A program made the translations under genes and the position numbers. Below are positions 12,391 to 30,707 of a stretch of DNA of 44,179 nt, piece by piece (position 1 is the stretch's first letter; each line of letters starts with the position of its first letter). This stretch comes from Gammaproteobacteria bacterium (GTDB lineage Bacteria; Pseudomonadota; Gammaproteobacteria; JAJPIJ01): assembly GCA_022072255.1 (NCBI GenBank), contig JAJVHZ010000013.1, forward strand, positions 1-44,179, written 5' to 3'. The notes beneath the pieces are model-generated. The model made no database searches. It saw only the letters and a program-made list of their open reading frames with translations, and was not told the DNA's origin.

Positions 12391-13347
12391 ATGCGTGTGC
12401 TGTTTCCTCCGCTGGAGCCGGTGTCGAGCTGGTATCTGGAGACCGGCGGCGTCCACCGCGTCCATGTCGAGGACTGCGGCCGCCGTGACGGCATCCCGAT
12501 CGTATTTCTGCACGGCGGACCGGGCTCCGGCTGCAAGCCCTATCACCGGCAGTTCTTCGACCCGGCGCGCTACCGCATCGTCCTATTCGATCAGCGCGGC
12601 TGCGGCCGCTCCACGCCGGCCGGGGCGACGGAGCAGAACACCACCGCGGAGCTGATTGCCGACATCGAGGCCATCCGTGAGCGCCTGGGGATAGGGCGCT
12701 GGGTGCTGTTCGGCGGATCCTGGGGTGCGACGCTGGCGCTGCTCTACGCGCAACGCCACCCGCAGCGGGTGCGCGCGATGATCCTGCGCGGCACCTTCCT
12801 CGCGCGGCGGCAGGACATCGACTGGTTCTTTCGCGACGGCGTCAGCCGCATCTTCCCGGACGCCTGGGAGGCGTTCACCGCCGCCTTCCCGTCGGTCGTC
12901 GACGGCGACTACGTCGCGGCCGCTTACGAGGAGATGCGCGCCGGGGACCCGGCGCGGCGAACGGCATGCGCACGCGCATGGTCGGGCTGGACCGGCAAGG
13001 TGGTCACCTGTCTGCTCTCCGAGACACCGGCGGCGGAACTGACGCCCGAGCAGTTGGAACGAATGCGCAACGAGGTGGCCGTCGAGACGCATTATGCGCG
13101 GCATCGCTACTTCATCGAGGAGAACCAGGTCCTGCGCGACGTGCCGCGGCTGCCGCAGGTGCCGACCGTGATCGTCCACGGCAGGCGCGATCTCACCTGC
13201 ACGCTCGAGGCGTCGTGGATGCTGCACCGGGCGCTGCCGCACTCCAGGCTCGTCATCCTGCGCGAGGCCGGCCACCTCGCCAGCGAGCCGGCCATGATCG
13301 ATGCGCTGGTGTCGGCCACCGAGCAATTGCACGAGAGCCTGCCATGA
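12391..13347 (+). CDS. pip: Proline iminopeptidase
   Basis: An alpha/beta-hydrolase of 318 residues that removes N-terminal proline from peptides. HGGPGSGCKPYH forms the oxyanion region, FDQRGCGRSTP follows, the nucleophile is in GGSWGATL, and the acid and base lie in HGRRDLTC and EAGHLAS. The start was set at ATG 12391, where MRVLFPPLEPVSSWYLETG matches the family N-terminus, rather than the upstream TTG. The stop overlaps the folP start by 4 bases (ATGA). Confidence 0.92.
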   Translation: MRVLFPPLEPVSSWYLETGGVHRVHVEDCGRRDGIPIVFLHGGPGSGCKPYHRQFFDPARYRIVLFDQRGCGRSTPAGATEQNTTAELIADIEAIRERLGIGRWVLFGGSWGATLALLYAQRHPQRVRAMILRGTFLARRQDIDWFFRDGVSRIFPDAWEAFTAAFPSVVDGDYVAAAYEEMRAGDPARRTACARAWSGWTGKVVTCLLSETPAAELTPEQLERMRNEVAVETHYARHRYFIEENQVLRDVPRLPQVPTVIVHGRRDLTCTLEASWMLHRALPHSRLVILREAGHLASEPAMIDALVSATEQLHESLP

Positions 13348-14174
13348 CCCTGGTACCGAGACTGCGCGGTCCCGCGCCGCTCATCATGGGGGTCCTCAAC
13401 GTCACGCCCGACAGCTTCTCCGACGGCGGACTGTTCGTCCGCCCGGAGGACGCGGTGGCGCATGCGCTGCGGATGGTGGAGGAGGGCGCGGACATCCTGG
13501 ACATCGGCGGCGAGTCGACACGCCCCGGGTCCAGGCGCGTCGACGCGGAGGAGCAGATCCGGCGCACCTGCGGCGTCATACGCGCGCTGCGCGCCCACGT
13601 TCCGGCTCAGATCGCCATCAGCATCGACACGACGCTGCCTGCGGTTGCGGGTGAGGCGCTGAATGCCGGCGCCGATCTCATCAACGACATACACGGCGGC
13701 GGCGAGCCCGGAATGCTCGAGCTGGCGGCGCGGCAGCGGGCACCGATCGTCATCATGCACATGCAGGGCACGCCGGAGACCATGCAGGTCAATCCCGCCT
13801 ACAAGGACGTGGTTGCCGAGGTGCACGAGTTCCTGATGCGGCGCGCCGCGCAGGCGGAAAGGCTCGGTCTGCCGCGCGATCACGTCGTCATCGACCCCGG
13901 TATCGGTTTCGGCAAGACGCGCGAGCACAATCTTGCTCTCATCCGGGCCCTGCCGCGCTTCGCGGCGAGCGGTTACGCGGTGCTGCTGGGGACCAGCCGC
14001 AAGCGCTTCATGGGCTCGATCTGCAACGAGACGGACCCGCGCGAGCTGATCGGCGCCACCTGCGCGACCACCGCGCTGGGCGTGGCCGCCGGCGCGCGTA
14101 TCTTCCGTGTGCACGACGTCAGGCCCAATCGCCAGGCTGCGGACGTCGCCTTCGCCCTGCGGGGCGGTGGTTGA
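13344..14174 (+). CDS. folP: Dihydropteroate synthase
   Basis: 276 residues. It joins 4-aminobenzoate to the pterin diphosphate in folate synthesis. Key motifs are MGVLNVTPDSFSDGG, DIGGESTRPG, SIDTT, DPGIGFGKTREHN and LLGTSRKRFMG, covering both substrate sites. It is translationally coupled to pip (ATGA). A separate DHPS-related protein at 22354-23775 belongs to a different pterin pathway. Confidence 0.96.
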   Translation: MTLVPRLRGPAPLIMGVLNVTPDSFSDGGLFVRPEDAVAHALRMVEEGADILDIGGESTRPGSRRVDAEEQIRRTCGVIRALRAHVPAQIAISIDTTLPAVAGEALNAGADLINDIHGGGEPGMLELAARQRAPIVIMHMQGTPETMQVNPAYKDVVAEVHEFLMRRAAQAERLGLPRDHVVIDPGIGFGKTREHNLALIRALPRFAASGYAVLLGTSRKRFMGSICNETDPRELIGATCATTALGVAAGARIFRVHDVRPNRQAADVAFALRGGG

Positions 14175-15186: not shown

Positions 15187-16365
15187 CTAGGCCGGCTGCG
15201 GCGTCTCCGGCTGCTTCGCCTCGGCCTCGAGCAGCGCCCTGGAGTTCTTGGGATTGCGGAACAGGATCGGCCTGGCGACCGACTCCCTGCCCGCGGCGAT
15301 CCGTGCGGCACGATCGATCACATCCGTGATCACGTGGTGGTGCGGGGACTTGTCGCAGACCGGGTCGGCATTGGCGGCATCGCCGGTCAGCATGTAGGCC
15401 TGGCAGCGGCAGCCGCCGAAGTCCTTCTCCTTTTCCGGGCACGAACGGCAGGGTTCCTTCATCCACTCGAAGCCGCGGAAGCGGTTGAAGTCCGGCGACT
15501 GGTTCCAGATCCACTCCACGCTGTGCTGGCGGACGTTCGGGAACTCCATGCCGGGCAGTTGGCGCGCCGCATGGCAGGGCAGGGCCGTGCCGTCGGGCGC
15601 GATCGTCAGGAACACCGCGCCCCAGCCGTTCATGCACGCCTTCGGTCTCACTTCGTAGTAGTCGGGCACGACGTAGAAGATCCGCATCTTGCCCTTCAGG
15701 CGCTCCTGGAACTCGTGGGCGACCGGCTCGGCGCGCTGCAGCTGCTCGCGCGTGGGCAGCAGGTGCTCGCGGTTGTGATACGCCCACCCGTAGTACTGGG
15801 TGGTCGCCAGCTCGACGTAGTCGGCCTGGAGCTTTACGGTCAGGTCCAGGACGTCGCGGATCTGATCGATGTTCTGACGGTGCAGGACGAAGCAGAGCAC
15901 CATCTCGTAATCGTATTTCTTGACCAGGCGCGCCATCTCCAGCTTGTGCTGGAAGGCGTCGGTGCCGGCGATGAGATTGTTCATCTCCTCGTTGGAGGCC
16001 TGGAAGCTCACCTGGATGTGATCCAGCCCGGCGTCCTTGAAGGCCTTGATGCGCTTCTCGTCCATGCCCAGCCCCGAGGTGATGAGGTTGGTGTAGAAGC
16101 CGAGCTGGCGGGCCTCGGCGATCAGCTCCTCGAGATCCTGGCGCACCAGCGGCTCCCCGCCCGAGAAGCCGAGCTGGGCGGCGCCCATCTTGCGCGCCTC
16201 GCGCAGCACGCGCTTCCAGTCATCCGTGGACAGCTCGTTCTTGTACTTGGCGAACTCCAGCGGATTCGAGCAGTACGGGCACTGCAGCGGGCAGGCGTAG
16301 GTCAGCTCGGCGAGCAGCCAGAGCGGCTTATTGGGCAGGTTTGGGACGTATCCACTGTTGCTCAT
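15187..16365 (-). CDS. pqqE: PqqE, radical SAM peptide cyclase for PQQ synthesis
   Basis: 392 residues. It makes the first carbon-carbon bond between Glu and Tyr of PqqA. The radical SAM cluster motif is in [14 protein letters not shown] (CxxxCxxC), with GFSGGEP for SAM. The C-terminal SPASM region carries the remaining Cys ligands ([30 protein letters not shown]). The start was set at ATG 16365, which has GGAGG 6-7 bases upstream, instead of the TTG 6 bases earlier. It overlaps pqqD by 38 bases, so translation is likely coupled. Confidence 0.96.
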
Positions 16366-16642
16366 GGGCAACCTCCATAAAGGCGTACACGTCGTTGTCG
16401 AGCTCGACGCCGGGGAACGCCCGTTTCAGGTCGGAAATGATCTCGGCGACGCTGCGCGTGCCGTCGATGCGCCTCATGATCTCCGCCGAACTGTTGTTCA
16501 GCTTGATCATGCCCTCCGGGTAGAGGATGACCCAGCAGTTCTGCGCCTCTTCCCACTGCAGACGCTTGCCGCGCACGATCTGCGGCACGCTGTCCGCGCC
16601 GTACACCTTGCCGGTGGGTTTGATCTCTTTCGCTTCAGCCAT
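16328..16642 (-). CDS. pqqD: PqqD, peptide chaperone for PQQ synthesis
   Basis: 104 residues, normal for the family. It binds the PqqA peptide and presents it to PqqE. Recognisable blocks include [39 protein letters not shown] and a winged-helix pattern ending [11 protein letters not shown]. It lies 21 bases after pqqC and overlaps pqqE by 38 bases. Confidence 0.95.
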
Positions 16643-16663
16643 GTCGGTCCGCCTGTGCCGGTT

Positions 16664-17434
16664 TCACTCCGGGATGTTGTGGTAGGGCGGCTTCCGGTCG
16701 ATGTAGGCCACCCACATGCAGTCGAGCATGGTCCACAGGATATCCAGTTTCAACTGCAGGATGTTGAGCGCGCGCTCCTGCAGTTCGCGGGTATCGAAGT
16801 GATCCAGCGTGATCTGCAGCCCGTGCTCCACGTCGCGGCGCGCCTCCGAGAGGCGCTTGCGGAAGTAGGCGTAGCCCTTCGGTTCGATCCATGGGTAGTA
16901 CTCCGGCCACTTGTCCAGGCGCTTCTGGTGAATCTTCGGGGCGAACATCTCGGTGAGCGAGGAACAGGCCGCCTCCTGCCAGGAGGCGCTGCGCGCGAAG
17001 TTGATGTAGGCGTCGATGGCGAAGCGCACGCCGGGCAGCACCATCTCCTGGGAGTACATCTGCTCGCGCGTGAGGCCCACGGCCTCGGCGAGCTGCAGCC
17101 ACGCCTCGATGCCGCCCTCGTCGCCCTGCGTGCCGTCGTGATCGATGATGCGCTGGATCCAGTGCCGGCGCACCTCGCGGTGCGGGCAGTTGGCCATGAT
17201 CGCCGCGTCCTTGACCGGGATGATCACCTGGTAATAGAAGCGATTCGCCACCCAGCCCTGGATCGCGGGCTTGTCGAGCTTGCCCGAGTTCATCAGCAGA
17301 TGGAACTCGTGGTTGATGTGGTAGAACTTCTCCTTCTCGCGCAGCCTGGCCTCGAACTCCGCGCGCGACCACGCAGGCTGCGGCGCGGGCCTGGGAAGGT
17401 CCAGGGGCAGCTCGAAAAGTCTGTGGGTTCTCAT
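16664..17434 (-). CDS. pqqC: PqqC, pyrroloquinoline-quinone synthase
   Basis: 256 residues. It carries out the final cofactor-free ring closure and oxidation to PQQ. Family blocks present are [50 protein letters not shown] and [15 protein letters not shown]. The start ATG at 17434 overlaps the pqqB stop (ATGA). Confidence 0.96.
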
Positions 17435-18369
17435 ATCGTTATCTCCATGCCGTCAACGGAAACCTCCCAGCCCGCCGCCTTGCAGGCCGCGCGCTCCGGG
17501 CTGTCCTCCAGCAGGATGGGATTCGTGGTGTTGATGTGGATGAAGACCTTGCGCTTCACGCCGAGATCGCGGAACGCGGCGATCGTTCCGACGGCGGCGT
17601 CGGGCTCGTTGACGCTCATGTGGCCCATGCGCTGGCCGGTCTTCACGCCCACGCCGTCCTTGATCATCTCGTCATCGGTCCACAGCGTGCCGTCGAAGAG
17701 CACCAGCGGCGCGTTGCGCAGGCGCGCCCGGAGATCCAAGGGCATCGAGGCGCAGCCCGGGATGTAGAAGAAGCGCGTCCTGCCTTCCCCGTCGCGCACC
17801 TCCAGCGCCACCGTGTCCTCCTCCACCGAGCCGAAGTTCGCGCCCTTGGTCGCGTCTTCCAGCCACAGCGCCACCTTGCCGGGCACCGGGAAGGGGATCA
17901 CGACGATGCCGGAGGCGCTGCCGTCGACGTGGCGGAGCTCGGTCGGCTGATTCAGCGTCAGTACCTCGCGCCTCACGAACTGCGGGTTCAGTACGTTGAA
18001 GACCCTGTTGTCCGCGAGCACGCCCTGCACGCGGCGCGTGCCGTAGACGGTCAGCGGCTGCGACTCGCGCAGGGTGAGCAGACCGGTGATGTGATCGACG
18101 TCGGCGTTGGTGAGCACCGCGCCCTGGATCGGGCTGTGGCGCAGCCCGTGCTTCGGATGCAGGATGACGTTGTCGTTGATCTGCTGGCGCAGGTCGGGCG
18201 AGGCGTTGAACAGGAACCAGCGCTCGCCGTCGTTGCTTACGGCAATCGAGGACTGCGTGCGCGGGCGCGCGTTGGCGGCCTTCTCGCGCGCGCGGCGGCT
18301 GTTCGGATGATTGCAGTTCCACTGCGGGAAACCGCCCCCGGCAGCGGAGCCCAGTACGTGTATCCTCAT
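17431..18369 (-). CDS. pqqB: PqqB, metallo-beta-lactamase-fold PQQ biosynthesis protein
   Basis: 312 residues with the family N-terminus [19 protein letters not shown] and the [16 protein letters not shown] block. PqqB is thought to hydroxylate or process the cross-linked peptide intermediate. The zinc-knuckle region, usually CNCPNC, reads CNHPNS here, so two of the three Cys are replaced. GGGAG precedes the ATG at 18369. The gene begins 165 bases after pqqA, past a strong hairpin. Confidence 0.95.
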
Positions 18370-18533: not shown

Positions 18534-18608
18534 TTAACGGTTGCTGATGTACATCGTCACTTCGAAGCCGAAGCGGACATCGGCAAAGGCAGGGGTTTCC
18601 CAGCTCAT
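18534..18608 (-). CDS. pqqA: PqqA, ribosomally made precursor peptide of PQQ
   Basis: A 24-residue peptide: MSWETPAFADVRFGFEVTMY then ISNR. It contains the conserved E-V-T-M-Y core, with Glu16 and Tyr20 the residues fused into PQQ. The ATG at 18608 has GGAGG 7 bases upstream and the stop is TAA. The peptide lies upstream of pqqB in the same direction. Confidence 0.97.
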   Translation of the reverse strand: MSWETPAFADVRFGFEVTMYISNR

Positions 18609-21338: not shown

Positions 21339-21351
21339 TGAATCATTTTCA
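21339..21351. promoter_or_regulatory. MetR-binding site between metE and metR
   Basis: TGAA (21339-21342), five bases, TTCA (21348-21351): an exact match to the TGAA-N5-TTCA MetR box known from enteric bacteria. A further TGAA half-site is at 21308-21311. It lies 85 bases upstream of the metE start. Confidence 0.7.
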
Positions 21352-21364
21352 TGCAGACGGCGGC

Positions 21365-21370
21365 TATAAT
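21365..21370 (+). promoter_or_regulatory. -10 element TATAAT for metR, inside a GC-rich inverted repeat
   Basis: TATAAT is flanked by GGCGGC (21359-21364) and GCCGCC (21372-21377). Transcription would start near 21377, immediately before the metR ATG at 21378, implying a leaderless or nearly leaderless message. No good -35 is seen. Confidence 0.45.
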
Positions 21371-21377
21371 CGCCGCC

Positions 21378-22301
21378 ATGTTCCTGGACCTGAGACATCT
21401 GCGGACCCTGGTGATGCTGCGCGATTGCGAGGGCGTGGCGGCCGCCGCGCAGCGCCTGCACCTGACGCAGTCGGCGCTGTCGCACCAGCTCAAGGCCCTG
21501 GAGGATCGATGCGGCGGCGAGCTGTTCCTGCGCAAGTCCAGGCCGGTGACGTTCACGCCGCTCGGGCGCCATCTGCTGGCGCTGGCCGAGCGCATCCTGC
21601 CGCAGATCGAGAGCGCGGAGCGCGAATGCAGCCGGCTGGCGCGCGGGCAGACCGGCCGCCTGTACCTGGCGATCGACTGCCACAGCTGTGTCGACTGGAT
21701 CATGCCGTCGCTCGACGCCTACCGGGAGAGATGGCCGCACGTGGAACTCGATCTCTCGCTCGGCCACAGCTTCGATCCGGTTCCGGCGCTGCTCGCCGGC
21801 GCCGTCGATGCGGTGGTCACCTCGGATCGCGAGCAGGAGGGCCGCGTGGCCTTCGCGCCACTGTTCCGCTACGAGTCGGTGCTGATAGCCGCCAACGGGC
21901 ATGCGCTCGGCGCGCGCCGGCGCGTCCTGCCGGCGGACCTGCGCGAGCAGTGCCTGATCACCTACCCGGTGTCGGAGCGCCGGCTCGACGTCTACCGCGC
22001 CTTCCTGGATCCGGCGCAGATCCGGCCGGCGTCGCGGCGCACCGCCGAGCTGACCTCGATCATCGTGCAACTGGTGGCGAGCGGACGCGGCGTGGCCGTG
22101 CTGCCGAGCTGGGCCGTGGCCAAGTATGTCGAGCATGGTCACGTGCAGGCGCGCCGGCTGGGTCGGACCGGCCTGTGGGCGACGCTCTACGCCGGCGTGC
22201 GCCGCGAGGAGGCGCGGCTGCCCTATCTGCAGGCGTTCGTCGCCACGGCGCGTGAGGTCTCGGCCCGGAATCTCGCGGGAATACGCCCGCTCACGCGGTG
22301 A
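21378..22301 (+). CDS. metR: MetR, LysR-type regulator of methionine genes
   Basis: 307 residues. The N-terminal winged helix-turn-helix is in LRHLRTLVMLRDCEGVAAAA and LTQSALSHQLKALEDR. The effector domain has the MetR hallmarks DCHSCVDWIMPSLDAYRERW, VTSDRE and ITYPVSERRLDVYRAF, close to the E. coli protein. It responds to homocysteine in enteric bacteria. The start was placed at ATG 21378, matching the family N-terminus; the upstream ATG at 21351 would overlap the MetR box and the -10 element. Confidence 0.95.
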   Translation: MFLDLRHLRTLVMLRDCEGVAAAAQRLHLTQSALSHQLKALEDRCGGELFLRKSRPVTFTPLGRHLLALAERILPQIESAERECSRLARGQTGRLYLAIDCHSCVDWIMPSLDAYRERWPHVELDLSLGHSFDPVPALLAGAVDAVVTSDREQEGRVAFAPLFRYESVLIAANGHALGARRRVLPADLREQCLITYPVSERRLDVYRAFLDPAQIRPASRRTAELTSIIVQLVASGRGVAVLPSWAVAKYVEHGHVQARRLGRTGLWATLYAGVRREEARLPYLQAFVATAREVSARNLAGIRPLTR

Positions 22302-22353
22302 TCCCGCGATGCAGCCCCCTCGGGCCGGGCTGTGGTAACGTGTGCGAACTGCC

Positions 22354-23775
22354 ATGGCCGATCACATTCTGCTGCTGACGGGCAAGCTCGCCGAGAAGAG
22401 TCTGCGGCGGGTGATGGAGTCCATTGCGGCGCGCGAATTCACCTACGAGATCGCCAACATCGGCGTCTCGGTGGCGGCATTGATGACCACCGACATGATC
22501 GCGCGCCGGCTCACCGATACGCGCGGCGCCGCCCGCATCCTGGTTCCGGGGCTGTGCACCGGAGACTTCGAGGCCGCCGGCGAGCGCCTGGGCGTGCCGC
22601 TGGAGCGCGGGCCGGTCGACCTGAAGGACCTGCCGGCGTATTTCGGACGCGGCGCGCGCCAGCGCGACCTCAGCCAGTACGACATGCAGATCTTCGCGGA
22701 GATCACCGACGCGCCGCGGATCGGCGTGCAGGAGATCCTGGCGCGCGCCGCCGAGCATCGGCGTGACGGCGCCGACGTGATCGACCTGGGCTGCCTGCCG
22801 AGCACGCCGTTTCCGCATCTGGAGGAGGCGGTGCAGGCGCTGATCGCCGCCGGCCACACCGTGAGCGTGGATTCCGTCGAGCCGGAGGAACTGCGCCGCG
22901 GCGGCAGGGCCGGCGCGCACTACCTGCTGAGCCTGAAGGAGAGCACGCTCGCGATCGCCGAGGAGCTCGCCGCCACGCCCATCCTCATCCCGGAGTCCGC
23001 GGGCGACATCGAATCGCTGCACCGCGCGATGGATCGCCTGGCGGCACAGGGGCGGCGCTTCATCGCCGACAGCATCCTCGACCCGATCCACTTCGGCTTC
23101 ACGGAATCCATCGTCCGCTACCACGCGCTGCGGCAGCGCTATCCGCACGCCGAGATCATGATGGGCGTCGGCAATCTCACCGAGCTCACCGAGGCGGACA
23201 CCACGGGGCTGAACATGCTGCTGCTCGGCGTGATGTCGGAGCTGCGCATCACGCATCTGCTGACCACGCAGGTCAGTCCGCACGCGGCGGCCTGCGTGCG
23301 CGAGATCGACCGCGCGCGCCGCATCATGCATGCCGCGCGCGAGGACAGCAGCCTGCCCAAGGGCTACGACTCCGGTCTCATCATCGGGCACGAACGCAAG
23401 CCGTTTCCGTACACGACCGAGGAGATCCGCGAGATGGCCGCGCTGGTGCGCGATCCGAGTTACCGGGTGCAGGTCAGCGCCGACGGGATACACGTCTACA
23501 ATCGCGAGGAGCGCGTGCTGGGCGGCGATCCCTTCAGACTCTTTTCCGAGCTCGGCCTGCTGCAGAACGACGCCCCGCACGCCTTCTACATGGGTGTGGA
23601 ACTGGCGCGCGCCCAGATCGCCTGGCAGCTGGGCAAGCGCTACGTGCAGGACGGGGAACTGAACTGGGGCGTGGCCGTGCCGCCGGAGCGGCAGGGCGAG
23701 AAGGCCGACATGCACGCCTACAAGGGCGAGGGCCCGACACTGCAGGCGCGCCGACGCAGGGAATCTGACAAATGA
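22354..23775 (+). CDS. DUF6513, dihydropteroate-synthase-related protein (tetrahydromethanopterin pathway)
   Basis: 473 residues. An N-terminal region of about 120 residues (HILLLTGKLAEKSLRRVMES, LVPGLCTGDFEAAGERLGVP) precedes a pterin-binding barrel related to DHPS (DVIDLGCLPSTPFPHLEEAV, FIADSILDPIHFGF). Proteins of this layout are encoded with methanopterin genes in methylotrophs and archaea and are thought to join a pterin to an aminobenzoyl-type partner; that role is not proven. The start is ATG 22354 with no clear Shine-Dalgarno sequence. It overlaps the next gene by 4 bases. Confidence 0.8.
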   Translation: MADHILLLTGKLAEKSLRRVMESIAAREFTYEIANIGVSVAALMTTDMIARRLTDTRGAARILVPGLCTGDFEAAGERLGVPLERGPVDLKDLPAYFGRGARQRDLSQYDMQIFAEITDAPRIGVQEILARAAEHRRDGADVIDLGCLPSTPFPHLEEAVQALIAAGHTVSVDSVEPEELRRGGRAGAHYLLSLKESTLAIAEELAATPILIPESAGDIESLHRAMDRLAAQGRRFIADSILDPIHFGFTESIVRYHALRQRYPHAEIMMGVGNLTELTEADTTGLNMLLLGVMSELRITHLLTTQVSPHAAACVREIDRARRIMHAAREDSSLPKGYDSGLIIGHERKPFPYTTEEIREMAALVRDPSYRVQVSADGIHVYNREERVLGGDPFRLFSELGLLQNDAPHAFYMGVELARAQIAWQLGKRYVQDGELNWGVAVPPERQGEKADMHAYKGEGPTLQARRRRESDK

Positions 23776-24353
23776 TCTACGAGACCGTGGTCGTGACACA
23801 CGATCGCGACGGCAATCCCAACGTCGCGCCGCTCGGCATCCGCGAGCAGGACGGCATGCTCGTGCTGGCGCCGTTCCGGCCGTCCATCACCCTGCAGAAT
23901 CTCGCCATCACCGGCGAGGCGGTGGTGAACATGACCGACGACGTCGCCGTGATCGCCGGCTGCCTGACGGGGCGCAAGGACTGGCCGCTGGTGCCGGTCG
24001 CGCACGTGCGCGGGGCCCGGCTCGCGCAGGCGCTCGCGCACGTGGAGTGCCGGGTCGAACGGGTCGAGGAAGACGCGCGCCGGCCGCGGTTCTTCTGCCG
24101 TCGCGTGCACGAGCAGACGCACGCGCCGTTCAGGGGCTTCAATCGCGCCCAGGCCGCGGTGCTCGAGCTGGCGATCCTGGTCAGCCGCCTGCACATGCTG
24201 CCGATGGAGAAGATCGACCGGGAGATCGAGTACCTGAAGATCGCGGTGGAGAAGACCGCCGGGGAACGAGAGCGCCTGGGCTGGGACTGGCTGATGGAGC
24301 GGGTCGAGGCGCATCGGCGCGCCACGCACGCCGGCGAGGGGAGCATCGCATGA
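23772..24353 (+). CDS. DUF447 family protein
   Basis: 193 residues. The protein has a flavin-reductase-like split-barrel start (ETVVVTHDRDGNPNVAPLGI) and a helical C-terminus (AAVLELAILVSRLHMLP, EIDREIEYLKIAVEKTAG). DUF447 occurs in methanogens and H4MPT-using methylotrophs and travels with cofactor genes; its reaction is unknown. It is coupled at both ends by ATGA overlaps. Confidence 0.8.
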   Translation: MIYETVVVTHDRDGNPNVAPLGIREQDGMLVLAPFRPSITLQNLAITGEAVVNMTDDVAVIAGCLTGRKDWPLVPVAHVRGARLAQALAHVECRVERVEEDARRPRFFCRRVHEQTHAPFRGFNRAQAAVLELAILVSRLHMLPMEKIDREIEYLKIAVEKTAGERERLGWDWLMERVEAHRRATHAGEGSIA

Positions 24354-25111
24354 GCGTCGTGACGAACGTGCGCGCGGCGCCGGGTCTGCTCGCGAGCGTG
24401 CGCTCGCCGGCGGAGGCGGAGATCGCGCTCGCCGCCGGCGTGGACATCATCGATCTGAAGGAACCCGCGCGCGGTGCGCTGGGGGCAGTTCCGCACGCGG
24501 TCGCGCGCGACGTGCTCGCCATGGTCAACGGCGTCACGCGCGTGAGCGCGACCATCGGCGATCTGCACGGCGACGCGGCGCGCGTGAGCGCAGCGGCGCG
24601 GGCCATGGCGGCAACCGGCGTGGACATCATCAAGGTGGGCCTGTTCGACGACGGCGAGCGCGCCGAGGTGCTGGCGGCGCTGGCGCCACTCGCGGCCGAG
24701 GGCATGCGCATCGTCGTCGTGCTGCTGGTGGACCGCGGTCTGCGTCTCGAGGTCGAGGACGTGGCCGCGGCCGGGCTGTACGGCGCGATGCTCGACACCG
24801 CGAGCAAGACATCGGGCCCACTGACGCAGTTGCTGGAGGCGGATCGGATCCATGCCTTCCCCGAGGCCTGCCGGCGCGCGAGTCGGCCGCTGCTGTGCGG
24901 GCTGGCCGGCAGCCTGCGAGTAGAGGACATCGCCGCGGTCAGCCGCGGCGGACCGGATTATCTCGGTTTCCGCGGCGCGCTGTGTCACGACGGCGCGCGC
25001 GTCGGGCGCCTGAGCGGGCAGCGGGTCGCGGCGGTGCGCGCCGCGCTGCGCGAACATGCCGTGTCGAACGACAGAGCGTGGCCGCCGCTGAAGGCGGCAG
25101 GAGGGGTGTGA
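24350..25111 (+). CDS. MfnB-like (5-formylfuran-3-yl)methyl phosphate synthase (UPF0264/DUF556)
   Basis: 253 residues, TIM-barrel. In archaea MfnB condenses two glyceraldehyde-3-phosphates to the furan precursor of methanofuran. Recognisable blocks are LLASVRSPAEAEIALAAGVD, IIDLKEPARGALGAVP, VSATIGDLHG and KVGLFD, with Lys residues that would form the Schiff base and catalytic pair. It starts at ATG 24350 inside the DUF447 stop (ATGA). Its presence suggests a methanofuran-type cofactor made in this bacterium, consistent with formaldehyde oxidation by the H4MPT route. Confidence 0.85.
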   Translation: MSVVTNVRAAPGLLASVRSPAEAEIALAAGVDIIDLKEPARGALGAVPHAVARDVLAMVNGVTRVSATIGDLHGDAARVSAAARAMAATGVDIIKVGLFDDGERAEVLAALAPLAAEGMRIVVVLLVDRGLRLEVEDVAAAGLYGAMLDTASKTSGPLTQLLEADRIHAFPEACRRASRPLLCGLAGSLRVEDIAAVSRGGPDYLGFRGALCHDGARVGRLSGQRVAAVRAALREHAVSNDRAWPPLKAAGGV

Positions 25112-25112
25112 G

Positions 25113-25502
25113 ATGGCACAGTGGCGCAAGAAGACCAGCAGCGAAGTCTACACACAGGAGGAGATCGAGGCGCGGCTGAAGGACGAGCTGCCGAAGTGGT
25201 ACTACGAGGACGGCTGGATCCGCCGCAAGTACAAGACCGGCGGCTGGAAGGGCACGCTGATGGTGGTGAACACCGTCGGCCATCTCGCCGAGGCCGCGTG
25301 GCATCATCCGGACCTCACGGTGTCCTACGCGTTCGTGATCGTGAAGCTCGTCAATCACGAGGCCAAGGGCGTCACCGACAAGGACTTCCAGCTTGCGAAG
25401 AAGATCGAGGAAGTGATCATGTGGCAGCCGGGCAGGGAGGACGGCAGCGTGCTGCCCGGCACGCCCGATGATCCGCGCTTCAAGTACGTGAAGTACGACT
25501 GA
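25113..25502 (+). CDS. Pterin-4a-carbinolamine dehydratase family protein
   Basis: 129 residues. The family signature is intact: E-x3-H-H-P-x5-Y-x9-H-x8-D in EAAWHHPDLTVSYAF, VIVKLVNHEAKGV, TDKD. It dehydrates 4a-hydroxytetrahydrobiopterin in phenylalanine hydroxylase systems, but no hydroxylase is here. The gene follows the MfnB-like gene after 1 base, so a role in the methanopterin cluster is more likely. The N-terminal and C-terminal extensions (WRKKTSSEVYT, DDPRFKYVKYD) are longer than in the minimal enzyme. Confidence 0.88.
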   Translation: MAQWRKKTSSEVYTQEEIEARLKDELPKWYYEDGWIRRKYKTGGWKGTLMVVNTVGHLAEAAWHHPDLTVSYAFVIVKLVNHEAKGVTDKDFQLAKKIEEVIMWQPGREDGSVLPGTPDDPRFKYVKYD

Positions 25503-25628
25503 ACAACTGCCCGCCGCGGCAAGTCAGCTCGGGCGGCGAGTCCCGTGCGGCCTGAGCCGCCACGATGTGGAGCGGTGTGCCGGGACCTTGCCCGGCGCGC
25601 CTCGGCGATAGGGACGTGGGCGGTATTT

Positions 25629-26252
25629 TCATTCTGCCATTTGGTACCGGATGGCGAAGGCGGCCAGCGCGATGCCGGAGATCGCCAGCTCCATCGCGCG
25701 GCCCTCGATTCCGGCCTCGGCCGGCATGCGTTCCATGGCCTCCGCGGTGATCAGGATCTCGCCCGCCTCGGCGACGTCCTCGCCCAGCTTCGAGGCGCGG
25801 TTGACCGCATGGCCGTAGAGATCGTCCGTGCCCAGCAACAGAACGCGCCCGTGGTCGATGCCGCAGGCGACGCGAATGTCGAGTTCGTCCTCCGTCAGTA
25901 TGTTCGACGCGGTGAAGGCGAGATTCAGCGCGATGGCCGCCCGCGCCGCCTGCACCGGGTCGGGGAACACGGCATAGCAATTGTCGGCCTCGAATTTCAC
26001 GACGCGTCCCTGGTGGCTCTCCACGATCGGCAGCGCGGTGAGCTGCATGCGCCTGATCATCGACAGGTAGTGCACTATGCCGTGCCGCTGCGCCAGCATC
26101 GAGAACCCGGACATGTCCACCACCAGCACGCTCAGCTCGGCGCCGAACCGCTGCCAGATCTCCGTTTCGATCCGTAGCCTCGGCCCGGGCTCGGTCTGGC
26201 GCGAGTAGGCGATGAGCAACTCCTCGAACCGTTTGTCGATGCCGGCCTTCAT
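25629..26252 (-). CDS. Class III adenylate/guanylate cyclase-domain protein
   Basis: 207 residues. A short N-terminal helical part precedes a cyclase homology domain: VLVVDMSGFSMLAQRHG (first metal Asp), KFEADNCYAVFPDP (second Asp) and YGHAVNRASKLGEDVAEAGE. In active class III cyclases an Asn and an Arg four residues later stabilise the transition state; here the pattern is N-R-A-S-K, so the usual Arg is Lys. Nucleotide specificity and activity are therefore uncertain. Start chosen at ATG 26252 with GGAGA upstream; the longer frame to 26375 lacks family similarity. Confidence 0.78.
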   Translation of the reverse strand: MKAGIDKRFEELLIAYSRQTEPGPRLRIETEIWQRFGAELSVLVVDMSGFSMLAQRHGIVHYLSMIRRMQLTALPIVESHQGRVVKFEADNCYAVFPDPVQAARAAIALNLAFTASNILTEDELDIRVACGIDHGRVLLLGTDDLYGHAVNRASKLGEDVAEAGEILITAEAMERMPAEAGIEGRAMELAISGIALAAFAIRYQMAE

Positions 26253-26432: not shown

Positions 26433-27275
26433 ATGCGCCTGTACGAGAAGCTGACCAGCACGATCGCCCGCGATCTCGAGCGGTTCGTCGACACCGTCAT
26501 GGCCTTCGTGCCGGGATTCTTCACCGCGCTGCTGCTGCTCGCGGTCGGCTGGGTGCTGGCGCGTTTCCTCAGGTTCATCATCAGGCGCCTGGGGACCGGG
26601 CTCGATCACCTGGCCACGACGCTTGGCATTGCCGATCGGATGCCGTGGCTGCGGACGAAATGGTCGATATCGCGCGTCCTGAGCGGCATAGTCTACTGGC
26701 TCACACTGCTGTTCTTCATCGTTGCGGCCGCCGAAAGCATCGGTCTGCCGGGCGTGGCGCACTGGATCACGCAGGGCATCGGATACACGCCGCGGCTGTT
26801 CGCGGCGGCCCTGATCATGCTGGTGGGTTACGCGCTGTCGGCCGTGATGCGCGACATGCTGGTGAGCAGCGCGCTGCGGCTGCGGCGCGAGCAGTCGCTG
26901 CTGCTCGCGCGCATCTTCCATCCGCTCATCCTGGTCGTCGCCGGCCTCGTCGCCGCCGATCAGCTCGGCCTGGACGTCGGCCTGCTTGCCAGCCTGGTCA
27001 CGATCGTCGCCGCCGCCGCCTTCGGCGGCCTGGCGTTCGCGTTCGGAATGGGCGCCGGCAGTACGGTGGAGAACATCTTCGCGATACGCGAGCTGCGGCG
27101 CATGTACCGGCCCGGCGAGCGGGTGAGAGTGGGAGAGGTTGAAGGCGTGATCGTCGAGTTCAGCAGCACCGCGGTGATCGTCGACAGCCAGTCGGGGCGC
27201 GTGATGGTCCCCGGCCAGGTGTTCGGCAGGCAGGCCTCCATCCTGCTCGATCGCGGCGAGGCGGCACATGGTTGA
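26433..27275 (+). CDS. MscS-like mechanosensitive ion channel family protein
   Basis: 280 residues with about five membrane helices (for example FFTALLLLAVGWVLARFL and LFAAALIMLVGYALSAV). The pore-lining helix AAAFGGLAFAFGMGAGSTVENI and a beta domain (MYRPGERVRVGEVEGVIVEF) follow, as in MscS. It releases solutes under osmotic stress. Its last 8 bases overlap the next gene, so it is co-translated with the MgtE-type genes. Confidence 0.85.
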   Translation: MRLYEKLTSTIARDLERFVDTVMAFVPGFFTALLLLAVGWVLARFLRFIIRRLGTGLDHLATTLGIADRMPWLRTKWSISRVLSGIVYWLTLLFFIVAAAESIGLPGVAHWITQGIGYTPRLFAAALIMLVGYALSAVMRDMLVSSALRLRREQSLLLARIFHPLILVVAGLVAADQLGLDVGLLASLVTIVAAAAFGGLAFAFGMGAGSTVENIFAIRELRRMYRPGERVRVGEVEGVIVEFSSTAVIVDSQSGRVMVPGQVFGRQASILLDRGEAAHG

Positions 27276-28086
27276 CCCGCTGGCGCGGCAGTTGCTCGTG
27301 CACCACCCGCCTGCGGCCGCGCGCTTGCTGGAGCGCCATCCGGCCGAGGAGGCGGCGTCGATGTTCGAAGAGCTGCCCGTGGATGCGGCCGCCGACCTGC
27401 TCGCGCACCTCTCGCCGCAGGCCGCGGCGCGCATCCTCCCGCGTCTGCCCGAGCGGCAGCGGGCCGACATCTTCCGCCGGATCCAGCCGGGACTGGCGGC
27501 GCAGATCGCCGCACGCATGCCGCCGCCGGAGGCCGATACGATCCTGCACACCATCCCGCTCGTGCACTCGACCTCCATACGCAACGCCATGCGGCAGCCG
27601 GCCGGCACGGCCGGTTCGATCATGCACACCGACGTGCTCACGCTGGGTGTGGCGCTGAGCGTCGCAGATGCGAGGGATCTCGCACGCGCATCGGCGCCCG
27701 CACTGCAGCCGGTCCTGTTCGTGGTCGACGGGATGCGGCATCCCGTCGGCGTGGTCGAGGTGGCCGATCTCTGGGTCGCCGAGGATGCGACGCCGCTTGC
27801 GCGACTGACTCGACCCTGTCCGCGGCCGGTGGCCGCGCGCATGAAGCTGACCCTGGTGCTGCGCGAATCGGCATGGACGACGGCGATCTGCCTGCCGGTG
27901 ATCGACGGCGACGGCAGGATGCTCGGCGTCATCGCGCAGGCCGATCTCCTGCGCATGGCCTTCGATCGCCGCGGTACCGCCGCCTCCGGCAGCGCGACGC
28001 TGACGGACGCGGCCATGGCGTTCGGCGAGCTGGTGTGGAGCGTGGGCGCTGCGGCCATCGAGCAGGCCGGTGGCGATCGGCGATGA
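27268..28086 (+). CDS. Soluble MgtE-N / CBS-domain protein, partner of MgtE
   Basis: 272 residues without membrane segments. The N-terminal part has MgtE-N helical repeats (AARLLERHPAEEAASMFEEL, AADLLAHLSPQAAARIL), and two CBS-like stretches follow (SIMHTDVLTLGVALSVAD, LPVIDGDGRMLGVIAQADLL). In MgtE this part closes the channel when magnesium is abundant. Here it is a separate protein encoded directly before a full-length MgtE (ATGA overlap). It may be a second regulatory subunit. Confidence 0.82.
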   Translation: MVDPLARQLLVHHPPAAARLLERHPAEEAASMFEELPVDAAADLLAHLSPQAAARILPRLPERQRADIFRRIQPGLAAQIAARMPPPEADTILHTIPLVHSTSIRNAMRQPAGTAGSIMHTDVLTLGVALSVADARDLARASAPALQPVLFVVDGMRHPVGVVEVADLWVAEDATPLARLTRPCPRPVAARMKLTLVLRESAWTTAICLPVIDGDGRMLGVIAQADLLRMAFDRRGTAASGSATLTDAAMAFGELVWSVGAAAIEQAGGDRR

Positions 28087-29387
28087 GCGCGATGCCGGAT
28101 CTCGCCACGGCGCTGCGGGAGAAGCTGTGCACCGATTTCCCGGGCGAGGCGGCCGACGTGCTGGAGCGGCTGCCGATCGAGGCGGCAGCCGCGGCCCTGG
28201 TCGCGATGCCGGTTGCGGTTGCCCGGCCGGTCTGGGAACGCCTGTCACCGGAGGTGGCCGTGCTGATGATGCGCGCCGCGGCGGCCGAGGACCGGGTGTC
28301 GATACTCTCGGCGATGGACGTCACCCGCGCTGCGCCGCTGTTCGCGCAGATCGACGCGCAGACCCGGGCCGAGTGGCTCGCGCATCTGCCGACCGCGGCG
28401 CAGGTCAACCTGCGGCAGGTGCTGAGCTACCCGGAGGACAGCGCCGGACGGCTGATGAATCCGCGCTTCACCAGCATCAGCCGCGACTGCACAGTGCGCG
28501 AAGCGCTGGATCGGCTGCGTCGTTTCGGCGGCGCGGGCACCCGCACCGTGTACCTGGTGGACGTGGAAGGCCGCCTGGAGAGCTGCGCGGAGCTGCAGGA
28601 TCTCGCGCTCGCCGAGCCGCACGAGCCGATCGCGCGTTACGCGCACCCGGTGAAGGCGGTGGTCGAGCCGGTCGCCGACAGCGAGGAGATCCTGCAGCTC
28701 ATCGAGCAGCAGCGCGTGGACTCCGTGGCCGTCGCGGACATCAACCGCAAGCTCATCGGGATCGTCCGCCAGGACGCGATCATCGACGCAGCGCGCGAGG
28801 ACGCCGCGGACGACATGCTCTCCATGGTCGGCGCCAGTCCCGACGAACGGGTGTTGTCCTCGCCGCTCGCCGCGGTGGGCAAGCGGCTGCCCTGGCTGCA
28901 GATCAATCTCCTCACCGCCTTTCTCGCCGCGGCGGTGGTAGGCGTCTTCGAGCCGATCATCGCGAAGTTCACGGCGCTGGCCGTGCTGTTGCCGGTGGTC
29001 GCCGGCCAGTCCGGCAACACCGGCGCGCAGGCGATGGCCGTGACCATACGCGGGCTGTCGCTGCACGAGGTGAACCTGAGGCACTGGCCGCGGATCATGG
29101 TCAAGGAGTTCTGGACCGGCGGCTGCAACGGGCTCGCGGTCGCGCTGACGACGGCGGTCGGCGTGTATCTGTGGAGCCAGTCGGTCGGCCTGGTGCTGAT
29201 CGTAGCCATCTCCATGGTCGTGTCCATGGTCATCGCCGGCATCGCCGGGGCCGGCGTGCCGCTGATCCTGACGCGCCTGGGGCAGGATCCGGCCACCGCC
29301 TCCTCGATCATCCTGACGACGATCACCGACGTGATGGGCTTCTTCAGCTTCCTCGGCACCGCCACCCTGCTGTCGCGACTGTTGTGA
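28083..29387 (+). CDS. mgtE: MgtE magnesium channel/transporter
   Basis: 434 residues with the full MgtE architecture. A helical N domain is at about 15-120 (FPGEAADVLERLPIEAAAAAL) and CBS domains at about 120-250 (EDSAGRLMNPRFTSISRDCT, VAVADINRKLIGIVRQDAII). Five membrane helices follow from about 275, with the pore signature GQSGNTGAQAMAVTIRGL and the final ITDVMGFFSFLGTATLL carrying the magnesium-coordinating Asp. Coupled to the soluble MgtE-N/CBS gene upstream. Mg2+ uptake gated by cytosolic magnesium is the family function. Confidence 0.94.
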   Translation: MSAMPDLATALREKLCTDFPGEAADVLERLPIEAAAAALVAMPVAVARPVWERLSPEVAVLMMRAAAAEDRVSILSAMDVTRAAPLFAQIDAQTRAEWLAHLPTAAQVNLRQVLSYPEDSAGRLMNPRFTSISRDCTVREALDRLRRFGGAGTRTVYLVDVEGRLESCAELQDLALAEPHEPIARYAHPVKAVVEPVADSEEILQLIEQQRVDSVAVADINRKLIGIVRQDAIIDAAREDAADDMLSMVGASPDERVLSSPLAAVGKRLPWLQINLLTAFLAAAVVGVFEPIIAKFTALAVLLPVVAGQSGNTGAQAMAVTIRGLSLHEVNLRHWPRIMVKEFWTGGCNGLAVALTTAVGVYLWSQSVGLVLIVAISMVVSMVIAGIAGAGVPLILTRLGQDPATASSIILTTITDVMGFFSFLGTATLLSRLL

Positions 29388-29430: not shown

Positions 29431-29943
29431 CTAGCGATCGCCGCGCTTTGCCCGCGCCCCCGCCCGCCGCCACTCCCCGGAGCGCCCGCCCGACTTCGCG
29501 AGCAGCCGCACGCCATCGATGCGCATCCCGCGATCGACGGCCTTGCACATGTCGTAGACGGTCAGCAGCGCGGCCTGCACGGCGGTCAGCGCCTCCATCT
29601 CCACACCGGTCCTGCCGTCGGTCTCCGCGGTCGCCGTGCAGAGCACGGATCGCCGGGGCGGCTCGGGCGTGAGCTCCACCGCCACGCGCGTGAGAGCGAT
29701 GGGATGGCACAGCGGGATGAGCTCGGCGGTCCTCTTGGCGGCCATGATGCCGGCCACGCGCGCGACGGCGAGCACGTCGCCCTTGCTGTGACCGCCGGCG
29801 AGTAGCAGGCGCAGCGTCTCGGCCCGCATGGTGATGCGACCCTCGGCCACGGCCACCCGATGGGTGATCTCCTTGCCCGCGACGTCGACCATGTGGGCCT
29901 CGCCGCGGGCGTCGAGGTGGGTGAGTTTCTTTCCCGATTTCAT
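29431..29943 (-). CDS. moaC: Cyclic pyranopterin monophosphate synthase MoaC
   Basis: 170 residues. With MoaA it makes cyclic pyranopterin monophosphate for molybdenum cofactor. Hallmarks are [26 protein letters not shown] and [20 protein letters not shown]. The start at ATG 29943 gives the family N-terminus; an upstream extension to 29988 is not conserved. Divergent from moaD and moaE, 86 bases apart. Confidence 0.96.
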
Positions 29944-30029: not shown

Positions 30030-30263
30030 ATGAGCGTGAAAGTCAAACTGCTGGCCAGCCTGGCCGATCGCTTCGGCAGCAGCGAAGTGGAGCTCCGGTA
30101 TGTCGACGGCATGACCGTCAAGGACGCCTGGGACGGCGCCACCCAAGGGGCGCCGCTGGTCCTCAACACCCTCTCGGCGGTGAACTTCGAGTACTGTGCG
30201 CTGCCGACCGTCCTGAAACCCGGCGACGAGGTGGCCTTCTTCCCGCCGGTCACCGGCGGGTGA
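30030..30263 (+). CDS. moaD: MoaD, sulfur-carrier subunit of molybdopterin synthase
   Basis: 77 residues, ubiquitin-like, ending in the required Gly-Gly (FFPPVTGG) that becomes the thiocarboxylate. [13 protein letters not shown] is the typical first strand and helix. It donates sulfur to precursor Z in a complex with MoaE, whose gene follows 6 bases downstream. Confidence 0.94.
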
Positions 30264-30269
30264 GCGCGG

Positions 30270-30707
30270 ATGAAGATCCTCCTCACCGATCGGCCCTTCG
30301 ATCCCTGGCGGGAGATCCAGGCGCGCCAGCAGGAGCGTTTCGCGCGCCCCGGGGAATATGGCGCCACCGCGGTCTTCGTCGGCACCATGCGCGATTTCAA
30401 CGAAGGCGACGCGGTGCGGGCGATGTCGCTCACCCATTACGAGGGGATGACGGAACGTCACCTGCAGCGCATCGCGTCGGAGGCGGCGGGGCGCTGGCCG
30501 ATCGACGATGTACTCGTCGTCCATCGAACCGGCGCGCTCGCCCCCGGCGATCCGATCGTGGCGGTGGCCGTCTGGTCGGCGCATCGCGCCGCGGCGTTCG
30601 ACGCCTGCCGCTACATCATGGAGGATCTGAAGTCCCGCGCGCCGTTCTGGAAGAAGGAGACGCTGCCGGAGGGGGAGCGATGGGTGGAGCGCAACACCCC
30701 GGGCTGA
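30270..30707 (+). CDS. moaE: MoaE, catalytic subunit of molybdopterin synthase
   Basis: 145 residues. Motifs include GATAVFVGTMRDFNEGD, LTHYEGMTERHL, VVHRTGALAPGD, VAVWSAHRAAAFDAC and PFWKKE, with the catalytic Lys pair. It forms the heterotetramer with MoaD. The gene ends the operon. Confidence 0.95.
   Translation: MKILLTDRPFDPWREIQARQQERFARPGEYGATAVFVGTMRDFNEGDAVRAMSLTHYEGMTERHLQRIASEAAGRWPIDDVLVVHRTGALAPGDPIVAVAVWSAHRAAAFDACRYIMEDLKSRAPFWKKETLPEGERWVERNTPG

Follow-up and report, generated by a model that had tools for sequence, protein, structure and literature searches.

Gene content of the operon

We examined a 44,179-nt stretch of DNA from an uncultured Gammaproteobacteria bacterium (contig JAJVHZ010000013.1, hereafter the window; its genome is G000), focusing on four consecutive plus-strand genes at positions 22354–25502. 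These encode a DUF6513/dihydropteroate synthase (DHPS)-like protein (22354–23775, 473 aa; PF20123, 2.1e-35), a predicted DUF447 FMN-binding split-barrel protein (23772–24353, 193 aa; PF04289, 1.2e-26, and PF20766, 2.7e-18), MfnB, the (5-formylfuran-3-yl)methyl phosphate synthase also known as Orf22 (24350–25111, 253 aa; PF04476 4HFCP_synth, 3e-58), and a pterin-4a-carbinolamine dehydratase (Pcd; 25113–25502, 129 aa; PF01329 Pterin_4a, 2.3e-25). The latter falls in a tetrahydromethanopterin (H4MPT)-associated subfamily that we refer to as M-type Pcd. All of these family matches are far over the cut-offs. ATGA start/stop overlaps join DUF6513 to DUF447 (23772–23775, plus strand) and DUF447 to MfnB (24350–24353, plus strand), and a single base (25112) separates the MfnB stop codon from the ATG of the Pcd. 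A sequence-only reading of the window had described four overlapping or abutting genes, one of them for the furan part of methanofuran, and both statements agree with the open reading frames (ORFs) and with the identification of MfnB. Below, L denotes fetched loci, G genomes and C contigs within a genome.

Folds and predicted roles of DUF6513, DUF447 and MfnB

Two of the four proteins had been considered to be of unknown reaction. Their families are not blank, since one is DHPS-like and the other an FMN split barrel. The match of DUF6513 to the DHPS-like family TIGR00284 (5e-54, 183.6 bits) falls below the curated cut-off of 256.65, so that "DHPS-like" is a statement of fold and distant homology only. 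Its AlphaFold model (mean pLDDT 80, 90+ in the barrel region) has the DHPS TIM-barrel fold, and the best PDB matches are DHPS structures (E 3e-9, TM-score ~0.65 on DHPS length). DUF6513 has this pterin-binding fold in common with TIGR00284 DHPS-like proteins and bacterial FolP but, unlike them, carries an extra N-terminal DUF6513 domain and, at its C-terminal end, a region that matches PterinBD-DUF4346 weakly. Because a separate, ordinary FolP-like ORF lies at 13344–14174 of the window, DUF6513 is best read as an enzyme of the methanopterin branch. It is likely the condensing enzyme of H4MPT synthesis that joins the pterin to 4-(β-D-ribofuranosyl)aminobenzene 5'-phosphate (beta-RFA-P).

The model of the DUF447 protein (pLDDT 94) is best matched by 3b5m and the FMN-bound structures 2nr4, 2ptf and 2iml, followed by flavin reductases, and places the protein in the FMN-binding split-barrel family. 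The fold is alike over the full length in MM1853 (2nr4), MTH_863 (2ptf), 2iml and the Rhodopirellula protein 3b5m, whereas sequence identity to these is 18–34%; none of them has an assigned reaction. Judged from their positions, DUF6513 should be the orthologue of Orf20, and DUF447 that of Orf19, of the Methylosinus island described below. MfnB aligns to the MJ1099 structure 4rc1 and retains the lysines of IIDLKEP, IIKVGL and MLDTASK. It reaches the PF04476 score and falls short of the NCBIfam MfnB equivalog cut-offs.

Other H4MPT and methylofuran genes in the genome

The genes fae, mtdB, mch and fhc, whose absence had been set beforehand as grounds for rejecting a link of the operon to H4MPT, are all present in G000, together with mptG, mfnE, mfnF and pabB. 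Two Fae copies are encoded, one of them inside a pathway island on contig C3. Around this fae gene the island encodes an MfnE-like kinase, PabB, MfnF (TIGR03123, over cut-off) and an ATP-grasp ligase related to MfnD. Further genes are for a HisA-like protein, a CitG-like protein, a RimK/MptN-like ligase, Mch (TIGR03120, over cut-off), another ATP-grasp protein, MtdB with an Mpt_N domain and beta-RFA-P synthase (mptG; TIGR00144, over cut-off), and four genes follow the order fhcBADC. Part of the island was identified by gene calling and by comparison with islands already annotated, and so were the Fhc genes, whose names come from homology and not from a dedicated family search. MfnB, MfnE and MfnF correspond to Orf22, Orf21 and Orf9, respectively (PMC8141765). 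From this gene content, the operon very probably belongs to the H4MPT/methylofuran pathway, as had been proposed. It is probably one of two H4MPT/methylofuran cofactor loci in this gammaproteobacterium, which is itself probably methylotrophic.

Operon layouts in methylotrophic Proteobacteria

A scan of species genomes provided 80 DUF6513 loci, 81 with the window, mostly from methylotrophic Gamma- and Betaproteobacteria and including some contigs that end early. The DUF447 family occurs at 75 and the MfnB family at 70 of these 81 loci, so the gene order is not due to chance. The DUF6513-DUF447-MfnB core is standard in methylotrophic Proteobacteria and does not represent a new pathway; the suggestion of a poorly described pathway does not hold for the cluster as a whole, which is an island of the long-known orf19–orf22 type (PMC3615186, PMC8141765). 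Methylotroph H4MPT/methylofuran islands contain the same three families in the same overlapping order. For example, Methylosinus trichosporium has an orf19-orf20-afpA-orf21-orf22 island, and a pcbD-mptG island is among its H4MPT genes (PMC3615186). Unlike in the Methylosinus-type island, Pcd closes the DUF6513-DUF447-MfnB operon in the window, the flavoprotein AfpA/DmrB is absent from both operon and genome, and MfnE is encoded on another contig.

Two main layouts were found. AfpA/DmrB is encoded upstream of DUF6513 in 54 loci, and Pcd is encoded downstream of MfnB without AfpA in 14 loci, including the window; both genes are near DUF6513 in one locus and neither in 13. The exact order DUF6513-DUF447-MfnB-Pcd was seen in 12 loci including the window. 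In the DUF6513 tree they group on a single supported branch (98% SH-aLRT, a quick method), which also holds a locus truncated within DUF6513 by the end of its contig. Since all loci with the four-gene layout belong to this one clade, the mutual exclusion of AfpA and Pcd in the operon counts as one event and not as repeated evidence, and the layout probably arose once. On a Paraburkholderia plasmid, an IS5 transposase gene (L253:28745-29686) follows DUF6513 at the place expected for DUF447, and no DUF447 is annotated there.

A distinct subfamily of Pcd

The window Pcd scores 89 bits against PF01329 (cut-off 26), and 191 bits with a model of the M-type versus 64 bits with a PhhB-type model. M-type members in general reach 160–190 bits with the former profile and 60–70 bits with the latter. 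They have the fold family and a complete active-site motif in common with PhhB, the pterin-4a-carbinolamine dehydratase of PF01329 and COG2154. In the window this motif (EAAWHHPDLTVSYAFVIVKLVNHEAKGVTDKD; 25290–25385, plus strand) matches [EDKH]x3H[HN][PCS]x5-6[YWF]x9[HW]x8-15D, reportedly the form described by Naponelli in 2008. Unlike PhhB, M-type proteins share GWIRRKYKTSGWK and a conserved C-terminal tail of 25–30 aa without counterpart in the PhhB-type (MWQPGREDGSVLPGTPDDPRFKYVKYD in the window; 25422–25499, plus strand), and their genes are linked to H4MPT genes, not to phenylalanine hydroxylase. Also shared are the stretch HLAEAAxHHPDLTVSYAFV and, within the tail, a pattern like WQPGxExxSALxGTPDDPRFKYIKYD. 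Both the active-site motif and the tail are kept in 37/37 distinct M-type sequences.

In the tree, M-type sequences lie on one side of a branch with support of 87 when taken alone and 100 with one intermediate sequence included, and several genomes encode both subtypes. As judged from sequence, the M-type Pcd is a separate subfamily of PF01329 found almost only in bacteria with the H4MPT pathway. It is present in 37 of the 41 genomes that encode DUF6513 and in one of 80 DUF6513-negative relatives, G073, which carries Mch. Counted by pathway, with G073 moved on account of its Mch, the distribution is 38/42 versus 0/79 (Fisher p ~3e-27, kinship ignored). For the controls, weak and strong PF01329 matches alike were classified from fetched loci or stretches, except for some low-scoring second copies (<=26 bits). 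Generic Pcd was rejected as a marker of H4MPT because it is found in 61 of the 80 relatives that lack DUF6513; the subtype alone is informative. The coupling of a pterin dehydratase to the H4MPT pathway, originally proposed from this one operon, thus holds and is far more general than the window alone could show.

Phenylalanine hydroxylase is the usual reason for a bacterium to encode Pcd. An ordinary PhhB-like enzyme for aromatic hydroxylase recycling, which landed in the operon incidentally, would be consistent with the complete canonical active-site motif and with the frequency of generic Pcd in the relatives. However, phenylalanine hydroxylase is encoded in only one of the 41 DUF6513-bearing genomes and not in G000, and the separate branch and the genomes holding both subtypes also argue against this explanation, which we consider extremely unlikely.

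The neighbors of M-type Pcd differ among lineages. In Methylophilaceae (L192, L196, L197, L199) the gene directly follows mfnE in a Fae-HisA-MyfB-MfnF-PabB-MfnE island, and in Methylobacillus, too, it is a neighbor of mfnE. Plasmids of Phyllobacterium and Azospirillum have it flanked by mptG and fhcB, and on a Paraburkholderia plasmid it adjoins mptG. The annotation of these plasmid copies reads 4a-hydroxytetrahydrobiopterin dehydratase. Strong M-type matches were found in 28 plasmid records, at least 24 of which carry DUF447 too, and a Thiodictyon plasmid has a lone M-type Pcd beside mobA. M-type Pcd is encoded in H4MPT islands next to differing genes (mfnE, mptG, fhc) in three classes, Alpha-, Beta- and Gammaproteobacteria. 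The pairing of Pcd with mptG was already reported for Methylosinus (PMC3615186), so the link of Pcd to the pathway is not wholly new.

Absence of AfpA/DmrB and of a DmrA-type dihydromethanopterin reductase

The last step expected in the pathway is the reaction of the dihydromethanopterin (H2MPT) reductases DmrA, AfpA/DmrB and DmrX (PMC6193120). No match to AfpA/DmrB was found in G000 (95.5% complete), in agreement with three close relatives; all four genomes from the window's family lack it, and so do all tested genomes with the Pcd operon. Overall, AfpA/DmrB is present in 14 and absent from 27 of the 41 DUF6513-bearing genomes, and Afp was previously not recognised in some Proteobacteria (Chistoserdova 2016, PMC5020050). 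DmrA belongs to the dihydrofolate reductase (DHFR) family and is 34–42% identical to DfrB (PMC6193120). G000 encodes exactly one DHFR, on contig C35, and a second, DmrA-type DHFR was not found there. Without AfpA/DmrB and with a single DHFR, no gene could be assigned as the H2MPT reductase of the window's clade. Pcd was rejected as a substitute for AfpA/DmrB because the M-type is also encoded, elsewhere in the genome, in most AfpA-bearing genomes.

A RibD_C/DHFR-family protein is encoded beside H4MPT genes without AfpA at L046:7698-8573 (minus strand), L251:1082-1942 (plus strand) and L278 (about 5372, minus strand), and also near mtdB in G105. The copies from a gammaproteobacterial metagenome-assembled genome and from an Azospirillum plasmid (L251) are 52% identical. 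This protein is a candidate alternative H2MPT reductase in some AfpA-less genomes or islands. It was found in 10/27 AfpA-less versus 2/14 AfpA-bearing genomes (Fisher p 0.17) and in 2/37 genomes without the pathway. As the reductase of the window it was rejected, being absent from G000.

It is conceivable that the final reduction in H4MPT synthesis, elsewhere the task of DmrA/DmrB, is taken over in the window's clade by DUF447, perhaps aided by Pcd. The absence of AfpA/DmrB from 27 of 41 genomes, among them all those with the Pcd operon, would fit this proposal, as would the single DHFR and the lack of a RibD-like candidate in G000 and the FMN-reductase type of fold of DUF447. On the other hand, DUF447 is equally conserved where DmrB is present and hence is no simple substitute; moreover, both pterins could be substrates of the single DHFR, or an unrelated protein could be the reductase. 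We regard the proposal as highly doubtful. A broader version, in which M-type Pcd is dedicated to methanopterin and has a substrate of its own, while the clade completes H4MPT without DmrA/DmrB, the operon (DUF447 and Pcd) giving a reductive or recycling step, seems to us decidedly unlikely.

Possible function of M-type Pcd

The genes present, their families and folds, their co-occurrence and their context are direct observations, from which we infer each of the following reactions, above all the substrate of Pcd. DUF6513 would take the place of FolP and couple the pterin pyrophosphate with beta-RFA-P. MfnB would produce the furan phosphate, to be activated by MfnE from the other contig, and DUF447 could be an FMN redox partner of the H4MPT/methylofuran pathway. 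M-type Pcd would dehydrate the 4a-hydroxy-H4MPT formed by oxidation, and the resulting dihydro form could be reduced again. Known Pcd chemistry is the dehydration of 4a-hydroxy-tetrahydropterin to the quinonoid dihydro form, which prevents 7-isomers (PMC9737128); applied to an oxygen-exposed H4MPT pool, it suggests a recycling or repair role. Taken as a whole, this is a reasonably probable explanation of the locus. For Pcd in particular, action on a methanopterin carbinolamine in recycling or repair has, from the sequence comparisons, roughly even chances.

Several observations weigh against this explanation. Four DUF6513-bearing genomes (G042, G087, G107, G119) lack M-type Pcd, which is therefore not strictly needed. 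G065 has neither DUF6513 nor Mch and yet encodes a Pcd intermediate between the subtypes (L229, G065:C106:2240-2700; 112 vs 67 bits). In addition, the co-occurrence counts are phylogenetically non-independent. Finally, COG2154 has been predicted to act in molybdenum cofactor metabolism (PMC3223725), and moaC/moaE homologues occur near the operon in ~10 related loci.

The COG2154 prediction and the recurring moa homologues would also support a role of M-type Pcd in molybdenum cofactor metabolism, its real partners being the downstream moaC (29431–29943, minus strand), moaD and moaE (30030–30707, plus strand), 4–5 kb from the operon in the window. In Alpha-, Beta- and other Gammaproteobacteria, however, M-type Pcd is encoded inside H4MPT islands that show no moa genes. 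It tracks the H4MPT genes, and relatives without those either have no Pcd or encode the other subtype alone, making this role highly improbable. Alternatively, M-type Pcd may act biosynthetically on a precursor of methanopterin, for instance during or after the DUF6513 condensation. This would fit the close linkage of its gene with those for DUF6513, DUF447 and MfnB in the window's clade, with mfnE in Methylophilaceae and with mptG elsewhere. The four of 41 genomes without M-type Pcd speak against such a step, as does the H4MPT route itself, which is not known to include a carbinolamine dehydration step. A biosynthetic role is thus unlikely, and recycling or repair fits at least as well. We rank recycling or repair first, followed by the biosynthetic step, the molybdenum cofactor role and a plain PhhB function.

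Other features of the window

A promoter and terminator consensus scan of 22200–25700 returned no match. The MetR-like LysR gene upstream of the operon (21351–22301) is divergent from metE and pairs with it, not with the DUF6513 operon. A PqqA-like peptide (MSWETPAFADVRFGFEVTMYISNR) is encoded on the minus strand at or around 18592–18608, upstream of pqqB, C, D and E (15187–18369), and pqq genes recur beside the DUF6513 operon in several related loci. Two consecutive overlapping MgtE-like ORFs are also present; the first (27268–28086) has MgtE_N and CBS domains, and the second (28083–29387) resembles a full MgtE transporter.

Significance for methylotrophy

The pathway and the core operon were already known, and our results are extensions, namely an operon layout that includes Pcd but not DmrB, and the delimitation of the M-type subfamily. 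We found no description of either in the literature searched, which covered few subscription papers, so an earlier description is possible. Formaldehyde oxidation via H4MPT underlies most aerobic methylotrophy, and several of its biosynthetic genes are still without an assigned reaction. The M-type Pcd, which follows the pathway through three proteobacterial classes and which current annotation as biopterin dehydratase conceals, is a concrete and testable missing part. In the clade without DmrA/DmrB, the way in which H2MPT is reduced can be tested directly on a small set of genes.

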